Assembly (NCBI RefSeq): GCF_002836475.1
Contig: NZ_PJBJ01000030.1
Span: 1,054,001-1,118,000 of the forward strand
DNA: 64,000 nt
Origin: Flavobacterium sp. ALD4
Lineage (GTDB): Bacteria; Bacteroidota; Bacteroidia; Flavobacteriales; Flavobacteriaceae
Direction: 5' to 3'
Shown piece after piece: positions 53,684-62,910 of this stretch (position 1 is the stretch's first letter; the number at the start of each line of letters is the position of its first letter). The position numbers were made by a program, and so were the translations under genes. The notes under the pieces were generated by a model. That model was not told the origin of the DNA. It did no database searches and saw only the letters and a list, made by a program, of their open reading frames with translations.

Positions 53684-56600
53684 TTACCCTTTATGCTCCT
53701 TATTATATTCATCCTCGCTCAATACTTGAGGTTCATAATCAGCGACTATCAGCGCGTCAAAATCTGTTTTCTTTCCTTTTGTAAATTTATAGATTAGTTT
53801 TTCCATGATTTCATAAATTACCGGAACAATAATCAACGTGAGGAATAGTGAACTGATTAAACCACCAATGATTACCCATGCTAATCCATTTTTCCATTCG
53901 GCTCCTGCTCCGGCTGCTAAAGCAATAGGGAACATACCAAATACCATGGCGATTGTTGTCATCAAAATAGGACGCAAACGGGCGTGATTGGCTTGGATTA
54001 ATGCGGTTCTGATTGTTTCACCGGCAGCTCGTCGCTGGTTCGTGTAATCCACAAGCATAATCGCATTTTTACAAACCAGACCAATTAGCATAATAACTCC
54101 AAGAATGGTAAATATATTTAAAGTGTTGTTTGTTAAAGCTAAGGCTAACAAGGCTCCAATAAAGGAAAGGGGTATGGCAAATAATACCACAAACGGGTGA
54201 GCAAAACTATCATATAATCCAACCATCACGAGATAAACCAGGATGATAGCAGCTAATAAAGCAAAACCTAAGGTTCCAAAACCTTCACTTTGATTTTCTT
54301 GATCACCACCCCAAATATAATTCACTCCAACCGGTTTTTTCATTATCGTCAATTTCTCTTCAAGTTGAGCAACAACTGTTCCTACTGGAACACCAACAGT
54401 TTGTCCTTTTACGGTAACGGATGCTGTTTTGTCTCTACGTTCTAATTGACTTGGTCCTGAACCTTCTTTGATAGTGGCAAATTGAGATAACTTTATTTGT
54501 TCCCCTCTGTCATTCATAAAAATAAGGTTGCTTACATCATTAATACTTTTCCTATCGAAACTACTGTACTTGATGTTGATATCGTACTCATATTCACCAG
54601 CTCTAAATTTACCGTCCGTATTACCGCTATAAGCAGTTTGCATGGTCATACCAACAGTTTGCAACGAAAGTCCAAGGGCGGCCATTTTATCTCTGTCGAC
54701 CTGAACGTTAATTTCAGGGTTTCCAGTCTCTACAGATAATTTAACTCCAGTAGCACCGGGGATTTTGTTTAGTTCTTTTTCGGCGGCTTTTGCAAAAACC
54801 ATCGCGCTTTCTAAGCTTGTTCCTGTAACAATTAATGCAATAGGTGCATCTTCGGCAGTTCCAAGAATACCTACCGGCACTGTTTTTACTTTGGCACCAA
54901 CCAATATTTTTTCTAATTGCAACTTCATCCTGGCGGCATAGACGTATGAATCATCTGTCCTGTCTTTTTGATCAATCATTTTCACATCAATCTCTGATTT
55001 GTATGCAGTAGATTGAGAAGCACCCATGCCTTCACTGGTTTGGCCTACCTTAGTAATCAGACTTTTCACATATTTTTGTGTGTTCAAAAAAGCTTCTGCC
55101 TTTTGCGCCATAAAATTACTTTGTTCCAATGACGCATCTTTTGGCAATTCTATTTGAACCAAAAATTCTCCACTATCTGATTTGGCAAAAAACTCTCCAC
55201 CAATGAATCCAAACGGAACTAATGCTATTGAACTAAAGAATAAAACCAGCACAACAGCTAAAGTAGTTTTGTAATGATCTAAACACCATTTTAATAAATT
55301 GGTAATCCAATTAGTAAAACGAGTTAATATTTTTTCGAATCCAAGAATAACTCTTCCAAAAGCATTTTTACCTTCAATATGTTCTAGTTTCCCAAAACGA
55401 GAAGACAACCAAGGAATTATCGTAAATGACGCCAGTAAGGAGAATAAAGTGGAGATAATTACCGTAACACAAAACTGTGTAATGATATTTGAAACTAATC
55501 CCGTACTCATCGCAATCGGTAAGAATACGACAACAATTACTAGGGTAATGGAGGTTACGGTTCCGGCTATTTCGGCTGTTCCTTCATAAGCTGCACGCAC
55601 CCTGTTTTTTCCCATTTCCATGTGCCTGTAGATATTCTCTAATACCACAATGGCATCATCAACAAGAATACCCACAACCAGCGATAGTCCCAATAAACTC
55701 ATTAAGTTTAAAGTATATCCCAGATAGTAAAATCCGATGAAGGTAGAGATCAAAGAAGCAGGAATAGAAACCATCACAATCAAGGAGTTTCTGATACTGT
55801 GCAAGAAAAATAACATGACAAAGGCAACAAGAAATACAGCAATCAATAAATCATGGATTACCGAATCAGCAGCTTCTAAGGTAAAAATAGTACTGTCATT
55901 AGCGACATTCAATTTCACTGCGTTTTCTTTATAATCGTTTTCTAATTTCGTGATGGTTTTATACACTTGCTCACTAACTGCAACTGCATTGGCATCCGAT
56001 TGTTTCACGATTTGTAAAATGATAGCGCTCTTTTGATCAACACGAGCAATTTTTTCAGCTGTTTTTTGTCCATCTTGAACATCTGCAATATCACTTAAAC
56101 GAATTTGGATTCCGTTTTTTGAAGACACGACTAAATTTCTTAGCTCTTGTACATTTTTGTATTTACCAGCTAAACGAATCAATATTTTTTTGTCACGTGT
56201 TTGAATATTACCAGTAGGAAAGTCTAAGTTAGAGGATAAGATTATCTGTTGTACTTGCGGGATTGAAAGGCCATACCCTTGCATTTTAATAGCGTCAAGA
56301 CTCACTTGTATTTCACGTTCCTGTCCACCAATAATGTTTACCTGAGCCACTCCATTTACACGGGATAAAACGGGAGCTATTTTTTTATCGATTAAGTCAT
56401 AAAAAGCAACTTCATCCATATTACCATTGGCACCAATGGTCATAATTGGTAAATCACTTAATGAGAATTTGCTTAAGGACGGTGCTTTAGCATCTTTAGG
56501 TAAATCACTTATGATGGCATTTATTTTACGTTGCGCATCGTTTAGTGAAAGATCGACTTTTGCTTTCGTGTTCAGTGTAATGGAAACTGTCGATAAACTT

Positions 56601-56857
56601 TCGTACGAACGAGAGTCAATTTTTTTAATGTTTTCCAAAGAAGCTACAGCGTCTTCAATTTTTTTAGTTACCGTATTTTCTACTTCAGAAGGAGAAGCAC
56701 CAGGGTATATGGTTGCCACAGTAATAACATTCTGTTCAAATTTAGGGATTAATTCATAGCCCAATTGACTGTAGCTAAAGAGCCCGCCAAGAATCAAAAT
56801 CGTAAACAGTACAATTACTAACGACGGACGTTTTATGGATATTTCTGCTAATTTCAT
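53684..56857 (-). CDS. RND efflux pump, inner-membrane transporter (AcrB/HAE1 type)
   Basis: 1057 residues, full length, 12 TM helices with two large periplasmic loops. Proton-relay residues are visible: the Asp pair in GILVDDAIVVLENIYRH and Lys in VCKNAIMLVDYTNQRR. YPGASPSEVENTVTKKIEDAV is the porter signature. A drug/hydrophobic compound pump is more likely than a metal pump because CusA-type Met residues are not seen. Last gene of the SDR-TetR-TolC-MFP-RND operon. Confidence 0.95.
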   Translation of the reverse strand: MKLAEISIKRPSLVIVLFTILILGGLFSYSQLGYELIPKFEQNVITVATIYPGASPSEVENTVTKKIEDAVASLENIKKIDSRSYESLSTVSITLNTKAKVDLSLNDAQRKINAIISDLPKDAKAPSLSKFSLSDLPIMTIGANGNMDEVAFYDLIDKKIAPVLSRVNGVAQVNIIGGQEREIQVSLDAIKMQGYGLSIPQVQQIILSSNLDFPTGNIQTRDKKILIRLAGKYKNVQELRNLVVSSKNGIQIRLSDIADVQDGQKTAEKIARVDQKSAIILQIVKQSDANAVAVSEQVYKTITKLENDYKENAVKLNVANDSTIFTLEAADSVIHDLLIAVFLVAFVMLFFLHSIRNSLIVMVSIPASLISTFIGFYYLGYTLNLMSLLGLSLVVGILVDDAIVVLENIYRHMEMGKNRVRAAYEGTAEIAGTVTSITLVIVVVFLPIAMSTGLVSNIITQFCVTVIISTLFSLLASFTIIPWLSSRFGKLEHIEGKNAFGRVILGFEKILTRFTNWITNLLKWCLDHYKTTLAVVLVLFFSSIALVPFGFIGGEFFAKSDSGEFLVQIELPKDASLEQSNFMAQKAEAFLNTQKYVKSLITKVGQTSEGMGASQSTAYKSEIDVKMIDQKDRTDDSYVYAARMKLQLEKILVGAKVKTVPVGILGTAEDAPIALIVTGTSLESAMVFAKAAEKELNKIPGATGVKLSVETGNPEINVQVDRDKMAALGLSLQTVGMTMQTAYSGNTDGKFRAGEYEYDINIKYSSFDRKSINDVSNLIFMNDRGEQIKLSQFATIKEGSGPSQLERRDKTASVTVKGQTVGVPVGTVVAQLEEKLTIMKKPVGVNYIWGGDQENQSEGFGTLGFALLAAIILVYLVMVGLYDSFAHPFVVLFAIPLSFIGALLALALTNNTLNIFTILGVIMLIGLVCKNAIMLVDYTNQRRAAGETIRTALIQANHARLRPILMTTIAMVFGMFPIALAAGAGAEWKNGLAWVIIGGLISSLFLTLIIVPVIYEIMEKLIYKFTKGKKTDFDALIVADYEPQVLSEDEYNKEHKG

Positions 56858-56937: not shown

Positions 56938-58005
56938 TTATTTGATAATCTCCACTTTTGTTCCGTCAGTCAAGTTAATTTGACCCGTGACAATTACAAT
57001 TTCATTATCAGAAAGTCCGTTTAAGATCTCTACTTTATCACCAAGAATTCTTCCTGCCGTTACATTCTTTAATTTAGCTATTCCGTTTTCTACGACAAAA
57101 ATCTGGTTGCTGCTTACACTTCCCACAAAGGCATTTCGAGGTACTACCATCATAGATTGTTTTTGTTGTTTTGAAGCAAATTCTGCCGTTCCATACATTC
57201 CCGCTTTTAGGTCATTAGAAGCGCTGTTTGTAATTTCTATTTCTACTGGAAAGTTTAAGCTGGAATCTGCTTTTTGAGCGATGAAAGTAATTTTTCCGGT
57301 AAAGTTGACATCAGGATAAACACTCGCGGTAACGTTTACTGGACCTCCCAATTTTAAATTAGCAACCTGGCTTTCGTCAACTGTAACAGTCAACTTTAAT
57401 GAGGAAACATTTACAATTTCAAACATTGCCGTAACAGGCATCGCAGTCAGCATAGAACCCGGCTCAATATATCTTTTGTTGATAAATCCTTTTATTGGCG
57501 CTTTTACCTTGGTGTCGCCTACGTTAATATTCGCTTGTTTCAAGTTAGATCCCGCATTAGTCATAGCTAATTTCGCTTGGTCTAATTGTTGTTTGGTGAC
57601 TCCTCCGGAATTAAACGCATTTTCATATCTGGCATAATCCGCTTGGGCGTTATTATAAACCGCTTTAGCCATTTGGGCATTTACATTTATAGCGTCGCTT
57701 CTAATAATGACTAATGTTTGACCTACTTTTACATAATCCCCTTCGTTTACAAGAACACTAATCACTTTCCCCGATTTTTCAGCTGAAAAAGTTAACTCTT
57801 GTATCGGTTCAAAATTTCCATTTACTGAAAAGTCTAAAGAAATTTCTTCGGTCTTAACTGCTTCTGTTTTCACGGATACACTAGCATTTTTTTCTGCGAC
57901 AATCGCGGTTTTTGCTGCGTTTTCTTTTTTGTTATTCATTAAAGTAAAAGTAATAAGCCCCAATGCGCCGAGTATTACAATTGCGATAGTTATATTTTTT
58001 TTCAT
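56938..58005 (-). CDS. RND efflux periplasmic adaptor (membrane fusion protein)
   Basis: 355 residues with an N-terminal membrane anchor (ITIAIVILGALGLITFTLM). Lipoyl-type hairpin halves (GKVISVLVNEGDYVKVGQTLVII and APIKGFINKRYIEPGSML) flank an alpha-hairpin (~105-160), then beta-barrel and membrane-proximal domains. Connects the RND pump with the TolC-like protein; 5 nt after the tolC-like gene. Confidence 0.94.
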   Translation of the reverse strand: MKKNITIAIVILGALGLITFTLMNNKKENAAKTAIVAEKNASVSVKTEAVKTEEISLDFSVNGNFEPIQELTFSAEKSGKVISVLVNEGDYVKVGQTLVIIRSDAINVNAQMAKAVYNNAQADYARYENAFNSGGVTKQQLDQAKLAMTNAGSNLKQANINVGDTKVKAPIKGFINKRYIEPGSMLTAMPVTAMFEIVNVSSLKLTVTVDESQVANLKLGGPVNVTASVYPDVNFTGKITFIAQKADSSLNFPVEIEITNSASNDLKAGMYGTAEFASKQQKQSMMVVPRNAFVGSVSSNQIFVVENGIAKLKNVTAGRILGDKVEILNGLSDNEIVIVTGQINLTDGTKVEIIK

Positions 58006-58009
58006 TGTA

Positions 58010-59353
58010 TTAATTATTTAGTAGTGATTTTAGTTCTCCTTTGGATTTTATTAGTTGAATTTCTGCTAGTTTGTAATCTAAGATTGCAGAGGTGTAGTTG
58101 TTTTGTGCCTCAGTAAAGGCATTTTCCGCATCTAATAAATCAGTTAAAGAAGCTAAACCCTGTATGTAATTATTTTTGGTGTTTTTTAATACGTCTTGCG
58201 CTAATTGTGCATTCCCTTTTTGGTTCTGTATCGTTATAATACTATTGTCAATTAGAGTTTTTGCATTGGCATAAGCCAAATCAAGAGATAGTTTTGTGTC
58301 TATTAAATCTTCTTTTACAGCTCTTAATTGGATATCTGCTTGTCTAACTTTAGAGCGTGTCTCAAATCCAGAGAAAATAGGGACTCTCAAATTTAAACCT
58401 ATCGAGGAAAAATCAGTCCAATAAACTCCATCGGTCGGTTTTGCTCCCCAAGGCATTTTTGGACCTTGACCTATATAATTGTATCCTGCAGAAAGCGATA
58501 GTGTTGGGTAGTAACCCGCAATCACTGATTGTTTTTGGAATTCTAACAGTTGTTCCTGTTTTTTCATCAGTAAAAACTCTGTTCGGGTCTCCGTATTCGG
58601 TATTTCTGAAAATGCCTGAGGCGTTACTTCAAAAGCAGCTTGGGGAATTTCAATTTTTGATTCAATTGGCATTCCCATATAAAATTTCAAGGCATTTTCT
58701 TGAATTTGAACGCCATTCAATACTTGTTGTCGTTGTGTTTTTATATTTGAAAGTTTCACTATAATTCGATCCAAATCAATTTTTTTTGATAAACCATTTT
58801 CATAGCGTCCTTTTATAATATTTTTCACTTTAGCAGTGTTTAAATAAGTGCTGTCCAAAACGTTTAAATTTTGTCGGCGAACATAGACTTGGTAGTAGTT
58901 ATTTGCCACTCTCTCGATTACTTGTTCTTCCGTTAACTGTTCATTTATTTGGTAAAACTCTCGGGTTGTTTTAGCCGCTTGTAAACCAGTGAAAACAGAT
59001 TGGTCAAATAAGTTTTGAGTCAAAGAAACCCCAGCAGTTGAAACCCATTTTTGACCAAAAGTAGCCTGAATAGTAGTTCCCGGCTCTCCTCCGAAAGATC
59101 CTGCATCGAGAAAAGTAGTTTGCAAAATGGGATTGTAAGTCAGTCCTCCATTCGCATTAATTTTCGGTAAGGCTCTGGAACGAACTTCCTGAATTTGGTA
59201 TTTGCTATTTTCTACTTTAAGTCTTGCTTTTTTAGCATCAGATTTGTTTTCTAAAGCATAAGTAATAGCGTCCTTCAAGGTAAGTGATTTTACTTCTTGT
59301 GCATTTGCCATAAAAGCAAATGTTAGGAATGATATTAAAATTAATCTCTTCAT
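58010..59353 (-). CDS. TolC-family outer membrane efflux protein
   Basis: 447 residues; signal peptide MKRLILISFLTFAFMANAQ. Two OEP repeats with long coiled-coil helices (SLTLKDAITYALENKSDAKKARL and AYANAKTLIDNSIITIQNQKGNAQLA). The C-terminus has ASLTDLLDAENAFTEAQNNYTSAILDYKLAEIQLIKSKG. Its start overlaps the tetR stop by one base. Confidence 0.94.
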   Translation of the reverse strand: MKRLILISFLTFAFMANAQEVKSLTLKDAITYALENKSDAKKARLKVENSKYQIQEVRSRALPKINANGGLTYNPILQTTFLDAGSFGGEPGTTIQATFGQKWVSTAGVSLTQNLFDQSVFTGLQAAKTTREFYQINEQLTEEQVIERVANNYYQVYVRRQNLNVLDSTYLNTAKVKNIIKGRYENGLSKKIDLDRIIVKLSNIKTQRQQVLNGVQIQENALKFYMGMPIESKIEIPQAAFEVTPQAFSEIPNTETRTEFLLMKKQEQLLEFQKQSVIAGYYPTLSLSAGYNYIGQGPKMPWGAKPTDGVYWTDFSSIGLNLRVPIFSGFETRSKVRQADIQLRAVKEDLIDTKLSLDLAYANAKTLIDNSIITIQNQKGNAQLAQDVLKNTKNNYIQGLASLTDLLDAENAFTEAQNNYTSAILDYKLAEIQLIKSKGELKSLLNN

Positions 59354-59949
59354 TATATTGTCGGATTTAGTAAATGTTTTTCAAGTTCGATTAGTCCAGC
59401 AGCAGTGGCCATAGCTCTGGTATGGTATTCTAAAATTTCTAATTCTAATTGTTGTGATTCTTTTTCTGAACTGGTACTTTCTTTTATGGAAAAGATTAAG
59501 TTGTAATAAAATCTTGTATAGTTTTCAATATTTATATTTTCTCGATAAAGTCCTTGTTTAATACCTTGTTCAATATTTTTTTTAAAAACAGTATTACATT
59601 CATTTATCTCTCGTAGCATTACTTTTTCATGAATTTCAGGATAATGTTTTTTTAATTGATAGATAGGAGAGGTATCTGATGATTGAAACATTTCTTTGAA
59701 CATTTTTCGAATTTCAAAATTTTCTCGAATTGCATTGTGCTCTTTACTTACAATGTTGTTAATGATTTCGTGTATCTCTGTATGCATTAAGGCGGTGCTT
59801 TCTTCAATTAGAATTTCTTTATTGCAAAAATATTTGTAAATCGTTTTTTTAGAAATAGACATTTCACCGGCGATATCGTCCATTGTAATACTCTTAAAAC
59901 CTAGTTTTATAAACATTTCACTTGCTTTGCTAATTATTTTCTCTTTCAT
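59353..59949 (-). CDS. TetR-family transcriptional regulator of the efflux operon
   Basis: 198 residues. The N-terminal helix-turn-helix is in ASEMFIKLGFKSITMDDIAGEMSISKKTIYKYFCNKE; the C-terminal ligand-binding helices are divergent as usual. It overlaps both neighbours by one base, so it is within the operon it probably represses. The GGAAACT-N14-AGTTTCC palindrome at the operon promoter, repeated at yceI, is the likely operator. Confidence 0.92.
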   Translation of the reverse strand: MKEKIISKASEMFIKLGFKSITMDDIAGEMSISKKTIYKYFCNKEILIEESTALMHTEIHEIINNIVSKEHNAIRENFEIRKMFKEMFQSSDTSPIYQLKKHYPEIHEKVMLREINECNTVFKKNIEQGIKQGLYRENINIENYTRFYYNLIFSIKESTSSEKESQQLELEILEYHTRAMATAAGLIELEKHLLNPTI

Positions 59950-60725
59950 TATTTATCTTGGATTAATCTAACCAGTTTTACGGTTAGAGCTCTTGGTGTA
60001 AACCGAATTGAATTTGCCATGATGGAATTGAATAAACCATGAATTGCGACTCTTTTTCCTTTCATCATTGCTCTAAAACCATATTCTGCCACTTCTTTTG
60101 ATGTTGGTAATTTTCTGCCTTTTACTAATTTGCTTTCATTCATGTCAGCGGCATCTTGAAATCCACTTTCGGTGGCACCGGGACACAATGCGGTCACAGT
60201 AATACCTTTATCACGAACCTCATTGTCAATTGCCTCTGAGAAATGCAATACATAGGACTTTGTTGCATAGTATACCGCCATTGTTGGCCCTGGTTGAAAT
60301 GCAGCAGTAGAGGCAACATTCATTATTTTGCCTTTTTTTTGAAGAACCATGTCTTTTAAAAAGAGCTTGGTGAATTGGGTTAATGTTGTAATATTCAATT
60401 GAATCATTTCTTCTTCTTTTTTCCAATTGGTATCCGTAAACATTCCAAAATCTCCAAATCCGGCATTGTTTATCAAATAATCAATAACAATGCTTTTATT
60501 TTTTAGTTCATTATACACTTCTTGAGCTGAATCAATTTTTGATAAGTCTTTTGCAATAATGAATGCTTTTATTGAAAATTCTTTTTCAAGACTGTTTTTT
60601 AGTTCTTGAAGTTTCGAGACATTTCTTGCGACCAATACAAGATCATTTCCTTCTCTGGCAAATATTTTAGCAAGTTCAAATCCTATTCCGCTAGATGCTC
60701 CGGTAATAAGGGCTGTTTTTTTCAT
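59949..60725 (-). CDS. Short-chain dehydrogenase/reductase
   Basis: 258 residues from ATG 60725 (MKKTALITGASSGIGFELAK). The frame extends to 60800, but that would cross the promoter and operator. Rossmann TGASSGIG, NNAG (LINNAGFGDFG), Ser of the triad in NVASTAAFQPG, and YATK catalytic Tyr/Lys. Classical SDR of DltE/YqjQ type; substrate unknown. First gene of the efflux operon, so possibly linked to modification of the exported compound or of a lipid. Confidence 0.93.
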   Translation of the reverse strand: MKKTALITGASSGIGFELAKIFAREGNDLVLVARNVSKLQELKNSLEKEFSIKAFIIAKDLSKIDSAQEVYNELKNKSIVIDYLINNAGFGDFGMFTDTNWKKEEEMIQLNITTLTQFTKLFLKDMVLQKKGKIMNVASTAAFQPGPTMAVYYATKSYVLHFSEAIDNEVRDKGITVTALCPGATESGFQDAADMNESKLVKGRKLPTSKEVAEYGFRAMMKGKRVAIHGLFNSIMANSIRFTPRALTVKLVRLIQDK

Positions 60726-60747: not shown

Positions 60748-60787
60748 CAAAAGTATTGCGGAAACTTTGAACACCAAAATAGTTTCC
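60748..60787 (-). promoter_or_regulatory. Efflux operon promoter with TetR operator
   Basis: On the - strand TTTG (60775-60778), exactly 19 nt, TACTTTTG (60748-60755): a consensus Bacteroidetes promoter. A palindrome GGAAACT-N14-AGTTTCC (60760-60787) covers the -33 box and spacer. The same 28-bp site, 25-26 bp identical, occurs at the yceI promoter. Confidence 0.8.
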
Positions 60788-60819
60788 AAAGTATTTGCAT
60801 AAGTTTAACATTATATGGA

Positions 60820-61362
60820 TTAAATCATGAACTCCAAGTTGGCGATCAGTTTAATGTCCTGACCTAAAGCAAGCCCAGCTGTTTGCGTATAGGAGTTTGT
60901 TGTGAGGTCAAAATCTCTACGATTTATTTGTCCTGTAATTTCAAACAATGCTTTTCTTTTTCCTTCACAAGTGGTTATCGCAATTAATTCGGCATCAAGT
61001 TCAATTACTTTCGTAATATTTTTAATCCTGAGGTTTCCTTTCAAGAAATTGATGTTTTTACTTATTTTTTGAAATGATGTTGATTTGAAATGGATAGAAG
61101 GAAAGGTGTCAATGTCTAAATAATCATTTAGGATTAAATGATTGTCAATGTGATCGATGCTGGTTTCATTGTTTTTGACATCTAATTGAAATTCAACTGA
61201 GGCATCTTCTATCTCATCTTCATAAATATCTAAATGTCCATTAAATTTATTAAGAGAGCCTGCTATGTATGCGATTATGGAATGTCTTGCTTTGATTAGA
61301 ACATCAGATTGATTGGAGTCAATAGTCCATTTTGTGGCTGTAATGGGGAGGGATGAATTCAT
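60820..61362 (-). CDS. YceI-family lipocalin-like protein
   Basis: 180 residues, an isoprenoid-binding-type barrel: TKWTIDSNQSDVLIKARHSIIAYIAGSLNKFNG, NDYLDIDTFPSIHFKSTSF, LRIKNITKVIELDAEL, and INRRDFDLT. It has no signal peptide, so cytoplasmic. YceI proteins bind polyisoprenoids or fatty amides. It has its own promoter with the efflux operon's operator, hence likely the same regulon; the divergent gene makes polyprenyl diphosphates. Confidence 0.9.
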   Translation of the reverse strand: MNSSLPITATKWTIDSNQSDVLIKARHSIIAYIAGSLNKFNGHLDIYEDEIEDASVEFQLDVKNNETSIDHIDNHLILNDYLDIDTFPSIHFKSTSFQKISKNINFLKGNLRIKNITKVIELDAELIAITTCEGKRKALFEITGQINRRDFDLTTNSYTQTAGLALGQDIKLIANLEFMI

Positions 61363-61388
61363 GATGATAATAAGTTAAATTGCGAATG

Positions 61389-61428
61389 CAAATGTAATGC
61401 GGAAACTTTGAATACTAAAATAGTTTCC
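61389..61428 (-). promoter_or_regulatory. yceI promoter with second TetR operator
   Basis: On the - strand TTTA, 19 nt, TACATTTG (61389-61396). The palindrome GGAAACT-N14-AGTTTCC at 61401-61428 has the same position relative to the boxes as in the efflux promoter. The transcription start is expected ~20 nt before the yceI ATG. Confidence 0.8.
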
Positions 61429-61518: not shown

Positions 61519-62493
61519 ATGCATGCCATTGACCAGTTTCAGGATTTTTTCATCACTTATTTAGAAAAGCAGGCTATTACTAAAGAGCCTGAAAATTTGT
61601 ATGAGCCTATTGCCTATATATTAGGGTTAGGTGGAAAACGAATTCGTCCAGTCCTAACATTAATGACTACAGAAGTTTTTAATGGAGATTATAATAAAGC
61701 GCTTCCTGCAGCTATGGCTGTAGAGGTTTTTCATAATTTTTCCTTAGTTCATGATGATATTATGGATGATGCCCCTTTGAGAAGAGGGAATATAACTGTT
61801 CATGAAAAATGGGGTGTTAACACTGGGATTTTATCGGGTGACGCCATGCTTATTTTAGCATACCAATATTTTGAACAATATGAGCCAGGTGTTTTTATGA
61901 GATTGGCAAAATTATTTAGCAAAACGGCACTCGAAGTTTGTGAAGGGCAACAATGGGATGTCGATTTTGAAACCCGAGATGACGTTACCATTCCGGAGTA
62001 CCTTAAAATGATTGAGTATAAGACAGCGGTTCTTGTGGCTGCAGCCATGAAAATGGGAGCTATAGTAGCTGAAGCTTCAGTGGAAAATGCTGAGTTGATT
62101 TATGAGTTTGGGTTAAATTTAGGTTTGGCTTTTCAATTGCAGGACGATTATCTTGATGCTTTTGGCAATCCAAAAACTTTTGGAAAGCGAGTAGGGGGTG
62201 ATATTATAGAAAATAAAAAAACATACTTGTATTTAAAAGCTATCGCGTTTTCTTCAAAAGAAGAAGCAGCTCAATTACAGCAGTTATTTTCGACGCAGCT
62301 TGAGGATAATTTAGTTAAAATTGACTCCGTAAAAGAAATTTTTAATAATTCAGGAGCATCTAAAGCGACTCAAGACGCAATACAAGATTATACTTTTAAG
62401 GCTTTTGAAACCTTGGAAAAAATGAATATCGAAGAAGCGAAAAAGGATGTATTAAGAGTTTTTGGCAAAAATTTAATGGGGCGAAAGGTTTGA
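61519..62493 (+). CDS. Polyprenyl diphosphate synthase (IspB/IspA type)
   Basis: 324 residues from ATG 61519 (MHAIDQFQDFFITYLEKQ), which fits relatives; the frame opens at 61477, with a cysteine-rich extension not expected. The first Asp motif is in LVHDDIMDDAPLRRG, the second in FQLQDDYLDAFG, and GGKRIRP binds IPP. Makes trans-polyprenyl diphosphate for menaquinone or related lipids. Followed by a conserved small gene 63 nt downstream, probably in the same transcript. Confidence 0.93.
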   Translation: MHAIDQFQDFFITYLEKQAITKEPENLYEPIAYILGLGGKRIRPVLTLMTTEVFNGDYNKALPAAMAVEVFHNFSLVHDDIMDDAPLRRGNITVHEKWGVNTGILSGDAMLILAYQYFEQYEPGVFMRLAKLFSKTALEVCEGQQWDVDFETRDDVTIPEYLKMIEYKTAVLVAAAMKMGAIVAEASVENAELIYEFGLNLGLAFQLQDDYLDAFGNPKTFGKRVGGDIIENKKTYLYLKAIAFSSKEEAAQLQQLFSTQLEDNLVKIDSVKEIFNNSGASKATQDAIQDYTFKAFETLEKMNIEEAKKDVLRVFGKNLMGRKV

Positions 62494-62556: not shown

Positions 62557-62910
62557 ATGTTTATAGCTCCTAAAAATACAGATTTACTATTTTCTGAAGC
62601 AGAAAAAGAAGCTTTATATCTTAAATTAGTTGAACAAATTAATAAGGATTTTAATTTAGCCAATGAAGCGATAGATTTTCCAATCAGTATTTCTCCCAAT
62701 GAATTAAAAATTCAATTGCATGAAAAAATATATCGATTGATTCAGTACAAATTTGCCGAATACCTCAATCTGCTATATATTATCGATGTCTCTGAAGATG
62801 AAGTCAAAAAAATGGACGGTTCAGATTTGGTCATATTGGCAGAGCAGGTCTCTTTTCTGATACTAAAAAGAGAATGGCAAAAAGTTTGGTTTAAAAATAA
62901 ATACAGTTAG
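62557..62910 (+). CDS. Conserved hypothetical protein, likely cotranscribed with polyprenyl synthase
   Basis: 117 residues, soluble, mostly helical: DLLFSEAEKEALYLKLVEQINKDF, IYRLIQYKFAEYLNLLYIIDVSEDEVKKM, VSFLILKREWQKVWFKNKY. To my memory near-identical proteins sit beside this gene in many Flavobacteria. No function known. Confidence 0.8.
   Translation: MFIAPKNTDLLFSEAEKEALYLKLVEQINKDFNLANEAIDFPISISPNELKIQLHEKIYRLIQYKFAEYLNLLYIIDVSEDEVKKMDGSDLVILAEQVSFLILKREWQKVWFKNKYS

Follow-up and report, generated by a model that had tools for sequence, protein, structure and literature searches.

The window, by which we mean the whole stretch of 64,000 nucleotides from Flavobacterium sp. ALD4 analysed here, contains a minus-strand gene cluster encoding a YceI-family protein, an SDR, a TetR-family regulator and an RND efflux system, with a polyprenyl diphosphate synthase gene diverging from it. 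The palindrome GGAAACT-N14-AGTTTCC is present twice in this cluster, once ahead of yceI and once ahead of the SDR gene. The features are listed below in order of position.

53684-56857, minus strand: RND efflux permease, AcrB/D/F family (PF00873)
56938-58005, minus strand: periplasmic adaptor, MFP (TIGR01730 RND_mfp, above cut-off)
58010-59353, minus strand: TolC-type outer membrane channel (PF02321)
59353-59949, minus strand: TetR-family regulator, the presumed repressor at both sites (PF00440, 39.1 bits against a cut-off of 24; fold model)
59949-60725, minus strand: SDR (PF00106), apparently a recent insertion between operator B and tetR
60748-60755, minus strand: -7 box TACTTTTG (TAnnTTTG), directly after operator B (sequence reading and comparison of site loci)
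60760-60787, minus strand: candidate operator B, GGAAACT-N14-AGTTTCC, preceding the SDR-tetR-tolC-MFP-RND operon; an equivalent site precedes tetR in relatives
60775-60778, minus strand: -33 box TTTG within operator B, 19-nt spacer (direct sequence reading)
60820-61362, minus strand: YceI-family protein without signal peptide (PF04264, 103.8 bits against a cut-off of 23.7)
61389-61396, minus strand: -7 box TACATTTG (TAnnTTTG), directly after operator A (sequence reading and comparison of site loci)
61401-61428, minus strand: candidate operator A, GGAAACT-N14-AGTTTCC, preceding yceI and upstream of the divergent polyprenyl synthase gene
61416-61419, minus strand: -33 box TTTA within operator A, one base from TTTG, 19-nt spacer (direct sequence reading)
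61519-62493, plus strand: polyprenyl diphosphate synthase, conserved divergent neighbour, probable start at MHAIDQ (PF00348)

Pfam and NCBIfam profiles confirmed the identities that a first-pass annotation had assigned to the RND, MFP, TolC, TetR, SDR, YceI and polyprenyl synthase genes, and both palindromes lie exactly where it had placed them. The gene order tetR-OMF-MFP-RND is present and, because the genes overlap or sit closely spaced, SDR-TetR-TolC-MFP-RND is likely to be a single operon.

Palindromes and promoters at the locus

The palindrome did not occur in 100 dinucleotide shuffles of the window. A search of the whole genome, which the first-pass annotation had proposed, covered 3,365,212 bases in 30 contigs (99.98% complete); far from being common throughout the genome, the palindrome has only these two exact copies, both at the locus, and the reversed control pattern was not matched exactly anywhere in the ALD4 genome. 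Allowing up to three mismatches, we obtained 213 matches to the site against 262 to the reversed control. Since the matches do not exceed the control, we treat the mismatched copies as noise and reject them as further regulon members; at that threshold the genome gives no hint that the regulon reaches further. The two operators are parts of a 49-nt direct repeat, with 84% identity between copies 641 bp apart, which includes the -7 box. Each operator has arms of 7 bp and an inner 14 bases that are scarcely palindromic, and operator B lies directly past the yceI stop codon, 34 nt from the start of the SDR gene.

On the minus strand, the promoter of the SDR gene reads TTTG-N19-TACTTTTG and that of yceI reads TTTA-N19-TACATTTG, TAnnTTTG being given as the Bacteroidetes promoter consensus in PMC5682007. 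The -33 position and the spacer lie under each site, and the exact TAnnTTTG follows 4 nt further on. The earlier description of these elements as textbook -33/-7 pairs with 19-nt spacers is correct for both spacers, for both -7 boxes and for the TTTG of the SDR promoter, but not for the -33 box of yceI, and this imperfect TTTA is a point against reading the palindrome as an operator. Among the site loci fetched from the family and genus searches described below, an exact TAnnTTTG stands 4-6 nt past 65 of 71 sites. In five Flavobacterium loci (L087, L088, L097, L098, L100) we also observed a double operator, a second full site being located 45-51 bp downstream of the first, past the -7 box and before yceI.

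A further short element, TGTTAA, is found upstream of operator B at 60805-60810 (minus strand). The same hexamer occurs within 40 nt upstream of 45 of the 71 sites, mostly at -23 or -22, with TGTAAA often next (loci L015-L104), and is not conserved at the class site loci; it is perhaps an activator or UP-type element. We dropped the idea that it is the polyprenyl synthase promoter, as it also occurs at sites with another upstream gene (operator B of the window, L086, L092) and in stretches that contain no polyprenyl synthase (family loci L163, L172).

Distribution of the site and the TetR lineage

The same search in related genomes, likewise proposed at the outset, found the exact site in 234 of 299 genomes of the family and in 178 of 199 genomes of the genus. 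By our own count, these amount to 242 sites against 18 control matches in the family, where TetR homologues at E <= 1e-15 occur in 279 of the 299 genomes, and to 256 sites against 2 control matches in the genus, where 57 genomes have two or three sites. From other genomes we fetched 60 site loci, 30 from the family search and 30 from the genus search, and TetR adjoins the site in 59 of them; the exception, L043, is without TetR and without polyprenyl synthase. Starting instead from the protein, we found the exact site in 27 of the 30 best TetR loci of the family search (3.6-kb stretches, the window's own included). A set of 22 further TetR loci with listed TetR coordinates (20 plus L144 and L146) came nearly all from genomes that have no exact site, and 20 of the 22 have a site with at most two mismatches: 16 with one mismatch, two with two, L144 with one mismatch and a 13-nt gap, and one exact, the last being L182, the second TetR of genome G134. 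One of the 22 has a site with four mismatches and one has none, which counts against the operator reading. The L144 locus (G134:C6), whose TetR-pump operon lies beside a phage-type integrase in a stretch with no polyprenyl synthase, was possibly acquired horizontally.

At the level of the class, RGAAACT-N14-AGTTTCY was found in 91 of 247 genomes, with 106 sites against 37 control matches by our own count. Given so many control matches, this count is weak by itself, and the evidence lies in where the sites are. Of the 28 site loci fetched from outside the family (L186-L213), 23 have a TetR homologue of 25-34% identity that starts 53-85 bp after the first base of the site; TolC was detected in 21 of these 23, and an exact TAnnTTTG is present in 17, mostly 1 nt past the site. 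The remaining five of the 28 have no TetR homologue, a point against the operator reading. Conversely, when class loci were picked by TetR similarity and gaps of 12-16 were allowed, a site with at most two mismatches lay upstream in 20 of 23, compared with 1 of 460 shuffled regions. It must be weighed against this that the site is unchanged in only one of the 23 and that the gap is 15 nt in four of the 20 near matches. As the near matches mostly take the form GGAAACN...NGTTTCC, we take GGAAAC-N16-GTTTCC to be the core of the candidate operator.

The AlphaFold2 model of the TetR protein (pLDDT 89.9) has ten helices in the all-helical TetR fold and, among its best 50 structural matches, resembles many TetR repressors at 10-19% identity with TM up to 0.74, including the acyl-CoA-binding FadR, Cytophaga 3f0c (TM 0.74) and DNA-bound QacR 1jt0 (TM 0.68). 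Judged from the model, these matches do not single out a ligand. The protein also fails as an NCBIfam FadR or AcrR equivalog, scoring 32.9 of 200 bits and 19.7 of 271 bits, respectively, below both cut-offs. In the helix-turn-helix region, S33, K34, K35, T36, Y38 and K44 are identical in all 174 aligned rows, and S33, K34, K35, T36 and Y38 are residues of the recognition helix. This alignment includes the window's own copy and leaves out matches that start after residue 12, have no nearby start, are incomplete, are of odd length or are duplicates.

A few sites and loci fall outside this general picture. At its 3' end, uvrC of two species of one genus (g34; G033 and G259) carries one more site, the same in both (L138, 3033-3060; L139, 2816-2843), which in L138 lies upstream of a patatin-Omp85 gene and is a possible distal regulon member; the second, distant sites in G072, G212, G221 and G258 are probably due to chance. 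Flavobacterium-like TetR loci, at 71-73% identity, were also encountered on MAG contigs labelled Rhizobium, Chitinophaga, Lentimicrobium, Bdellovibrio and Klebsiella (L271, L283, L294, L306, L313, L315), and these contigs are probably mislabelled or mis-binned.

Genes that change under the site

For loci with named records, we took the best 80 of 329 by TetR similarity, the nearest among these being Flavobacterium sp. ACAM 123 (92%) and F. frigoris (89%). The exact site is present in 71 of these 80 loci, polyprenyl synthase in 69 and yceI in 48. That yceI belongs to the TetR regulon, as had been suggested from the window, agrees with the finding that the site precedes yceI in 47 of the 48 named Flavobacterium loci (45 exact, two with one mismatch), compared with a best match of four mismatches when the same 48 regions were shuffled; in the one exception, L312, yceI starts 65 bases from the end of the contig. 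A second site between yceI and tetR is exact in 13 of the 48 and has at most two mismatches in six more. From this, yceI normally heads the operon presumed to be repressed, and the two-promoter layout of the window is one variant. Nor is that layout fixed, since operator B is missing from the yceI-tetR interval of ACAM 123, the closest relative among the best 80 of 329 (best match seven mismatches), which we counted against the operator reading.

The 32 named loci without yceI have the site before tetR, exact in 19 and with one mismatch in seven, except for six in which it is missing directly before tetR (L249, L260, L261, L262, L279, L290). In these six the slot is occupied by an SDR with 27-30% identity to that of the window, and an exact site lies ahead of it. 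The window's own SDR has no homologue above 50% identity at the loci of the best 80 of 329 named relatives; at E <= 1e-60 a homologue occurs in only four of 121 genus genomes, the window's included, and the nearest (67%, G360) is at an unlinked locus with no site. From its distribution, then, this SDR appears to be a recent, lineage-specific insertion: its proposed place in the regulon holds for the ALD4 genome, where it stands under the site, but does not extend to the 80 named relatives' loci. Other genes occupy the slot elsewhere. In a non-random set of 35 further loci we found an MBL-fold hydrolase (L127, L128, L129, L134), an NDH-2-like FAD oxidoreductase (L130, L131, L133) and a cNMP-domain protein with an SMR pump (L132).

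The nearest solved structure to the window YceI is TT1927b (1wub, E 9.5e-22), a YceI lipocalin of the same family, followed by 5w2d, which is named a polyisoprenoid-binding protein. By eye, no signal peptide is present at its start, so that the periplasmic or secreted character usual, though not universal, in the YceI family is not seen here. The window frame is open for only 184 codons, compared with 180 in the gene. Among the yceI genes of the 48 relatives, the frame stays open upstream for no more than 12 codons in 29; in the other 19 (up to 56 codons) the frame alone would allow an earlier start. Two other YceI proteins of the ALD4 genome have hydrophobic N-termini. On the basis of its sequence, we consider the window YceI to be probably cytoplasmic. 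BcnA of Burkholderia, by comparison, is described in PMC9113575 as a secreted protein with a linked gene for a cytochrome b561, whereas the window YceI is without signal peptide and linked to a TetR-RND operon.

The pump itself is exchanged. Two RND/TolC types were found downstream of closely related TetRs. A TetR tree of 105 rows requires at least 14 switches of pump type, judged by TolC identity, at least six of them forced by starred branches; the tree was built by a quick method, and support is weak for 43 of its 100 inner branches. In three genomes (G446, G447, G464; L135-L137) two complete tetR-pump operons stand in tandem; they differ in pump type, and each has a TetR and a site of its own. 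Because pump types have been swapped under related TetRs and the tandem operons each keep their site, we regard the regulator and operator as the constant part of the system and the pump as the variable part. The locus thus reveals repeated exchange of pump genes under a near-fixed regulator-operator pair.

Repression model and the nature of the signal

From these observations we propose, with a probability of roughly 0.88, that the palindrome is the operator of the TetR protein encoded at 59353-59949, which would repress both yceI and the SDR-tetR-tolC-MFP-RND operon in which its own gene lies. The TetR would sit on GGAAAC-N16-GTTTCC as a dimer or a pair of dimers, covering the -33 box and spacer and so blocking RNA polymerase at two promoters, that of SDR-tetR-tolC-MFP-RND (autoregulation) and that of yceI. 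A hydrophobic or amphiphilic effector would release it, and release would raise the pump, the YceI protein and the SDR together. The role of TetR as autoregulator of the pump operon and regulator of yceI, first suggested from the window alone, is strongly supported by the comparative genomics. QacR of Staphylococcus aureus, a pump repressor of the same fold (1jt0, TM 0.68/0.71) at 17% sequence identity, binds its 28-bp operator with two dimers. Unlike the window tetR, which lies inside the presumed repressed operon, QacR is not known to control itself.

Two systems of the same general kind have been described. For BmeR5 of Bacteroides fragilis, a TetR regulator from the same phylum, PMC4790292 gives a proposal that it represses the RND tripartite pump BmeABC5 by binding between bmeR5 and bmeC5; the likeness is one of description, and the description in that source contains no operator sequence, YceI, SDR or polyprenyl synthase, unlike the window. 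The RaeR-RaeC-RaeA-RaeB system of Riemerella anatipestifer shares the gene order tetR-OMF-MFP-RND, and its source names RaeR regulation as future work; it differs from the window in that no operator or YceI is described there, and neither 'palindrom' nor 'polyprenyl' occurs in the main text (PMC5727081). Likened to these by gene order and description, the system is best regarded as a well-defined new variant of the TetR-repressed RND operons of Bacteroides and Riemerella. Locally repressed RND operons were already described, and it is the operator that is newly defined: among the literature matches listed (titles and abstract starts, covering few subscription journals), none describes GGAAACT-N14-AGTTTCC. 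We thus provide a defined candidate operator for a widespread local efflux repressor of Bacteroidia, from which regulon members are predictable from sequence alone, and bring into an efflux regulon a YceI protein that has no signal peptide.

As to the effector, we consider it fairly probable that the TetR-operator circuit is that of an ordinary local multidrug repressor responding to a broad set of foreign hydrophobic compounds, with YceI, SDR and the small genes as general detoxification accessories and the synthase as a mere neighbour. The repeated changes of pump type point this way, as do the accessory genes that vary by species (MBL-fold hydrolase, NDH-2-like oxidoreductase, two different SDRs, SMR pump) and the analogues BmeABC5 and RaeCAB, which handle drugs or detergents according to PMC4790292 and PMC5727081. 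We stress that a TetR-operator pair so little changed over the whole class, and lying beside the synthase in 58 of 60 family loci, would also fit a constant endogenous signal.

The first-pass annotation had suggested that an isoprenoid or other hydrophobic molecule is sensed and exported. We find its specific form doubtful, according to which a polyprenyl or quinone-like lipid would be bound by TetR, carried by YceI and exported by the pump, with the synthase co-regulated. In its favour, most YceI structures hold an isoprenoid or ubiquinone-8, according to PMC9113575, and the NDH-2-like oxidoreductase joins the locus in three of the 35 loci examined. The divergent synthase flanks the site in 58 of the 60 fetched family and genus loci, being absent from L043 and L102; however, the site ends 52-180 nt (median 92; 119 loci) before the synthase start, and a synthase promoter overlapping it was not found in those 119 loci. 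TAnnTTTG was seen before the synthase in 61 of the 119, with a fitting -33 box only in L080, and was not seen there in the window. In 15 of 27 family-sample loci (among L015-L044) this candidate -7 box lies exactly 12 nt before the synthase start, clear of the site, which suggests a near-leaderless transcript; as an argument against co-regulation this has a weak point, none of the 15 having a usually spaced -33. Beyond the family, moreover, the 28 site stretches that we fetched, of up to 3 kb, yielded no polyprenyl synthase. With the TetR-site pair present elsewhere in the class in fetched stretches that lack the synthase, and the pump swapped repeatedly, sensing and export of an isoprenoid are not established, and we give a sensor of foreign hydrophobic compounds better odds than one dedicated to isoprenoids.

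A broader endogenous role can be imagined, speculative and in our view improbable, as a class-wide stress circuit of Bacteroidia: one TetR lineage with its near-fixed GGAAAC-N16-GTTTCC operator would sense damaged or excess endogenous isoprenoid lipids or quinones and serve as a landing pad for species-specific pumps and lipid-handling enzymes (an intracellular YceI carrier, SDR, MBL-fold hydrolase, NDH-2-like reductase); in Flavobacteriaceae, polyprenyl synthesis is encoded alongside.

It is very unlikely that another, unlinked regulator binds the palindrome and that tetR is merely one of its targets. Non-local regulators can act at efflux promoters, and the TetR-site pairing itself rests on sequence; yet the site stays with the TetR lineage through changes of pump type, polyprenyl synthase and inserted genes and through operon duplication, and the recognition helix is invariant along with it. 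It is extremely unlikely that the palindrome acts as a hairpin in RNA or as a terminator, or that the similarity of the copies reflects only a recent promoter duplication, despite the 49-nt repeat and the position of operator B directly past the yceI stop codon, since across hundreds of genomes the arms keep their sequence and only the bases between them vary, and since the site precedes the -7 box and is therefore outside its own transcript.

Beside the polyprenyl synthase gene, at 62557-62910 of the window, lies a gene for a 117-aa protein with no Pfam or NCBIfam match at E 0.001; open reading frames of 115-118 aa occupy the same place beside the synthase in many relatives.
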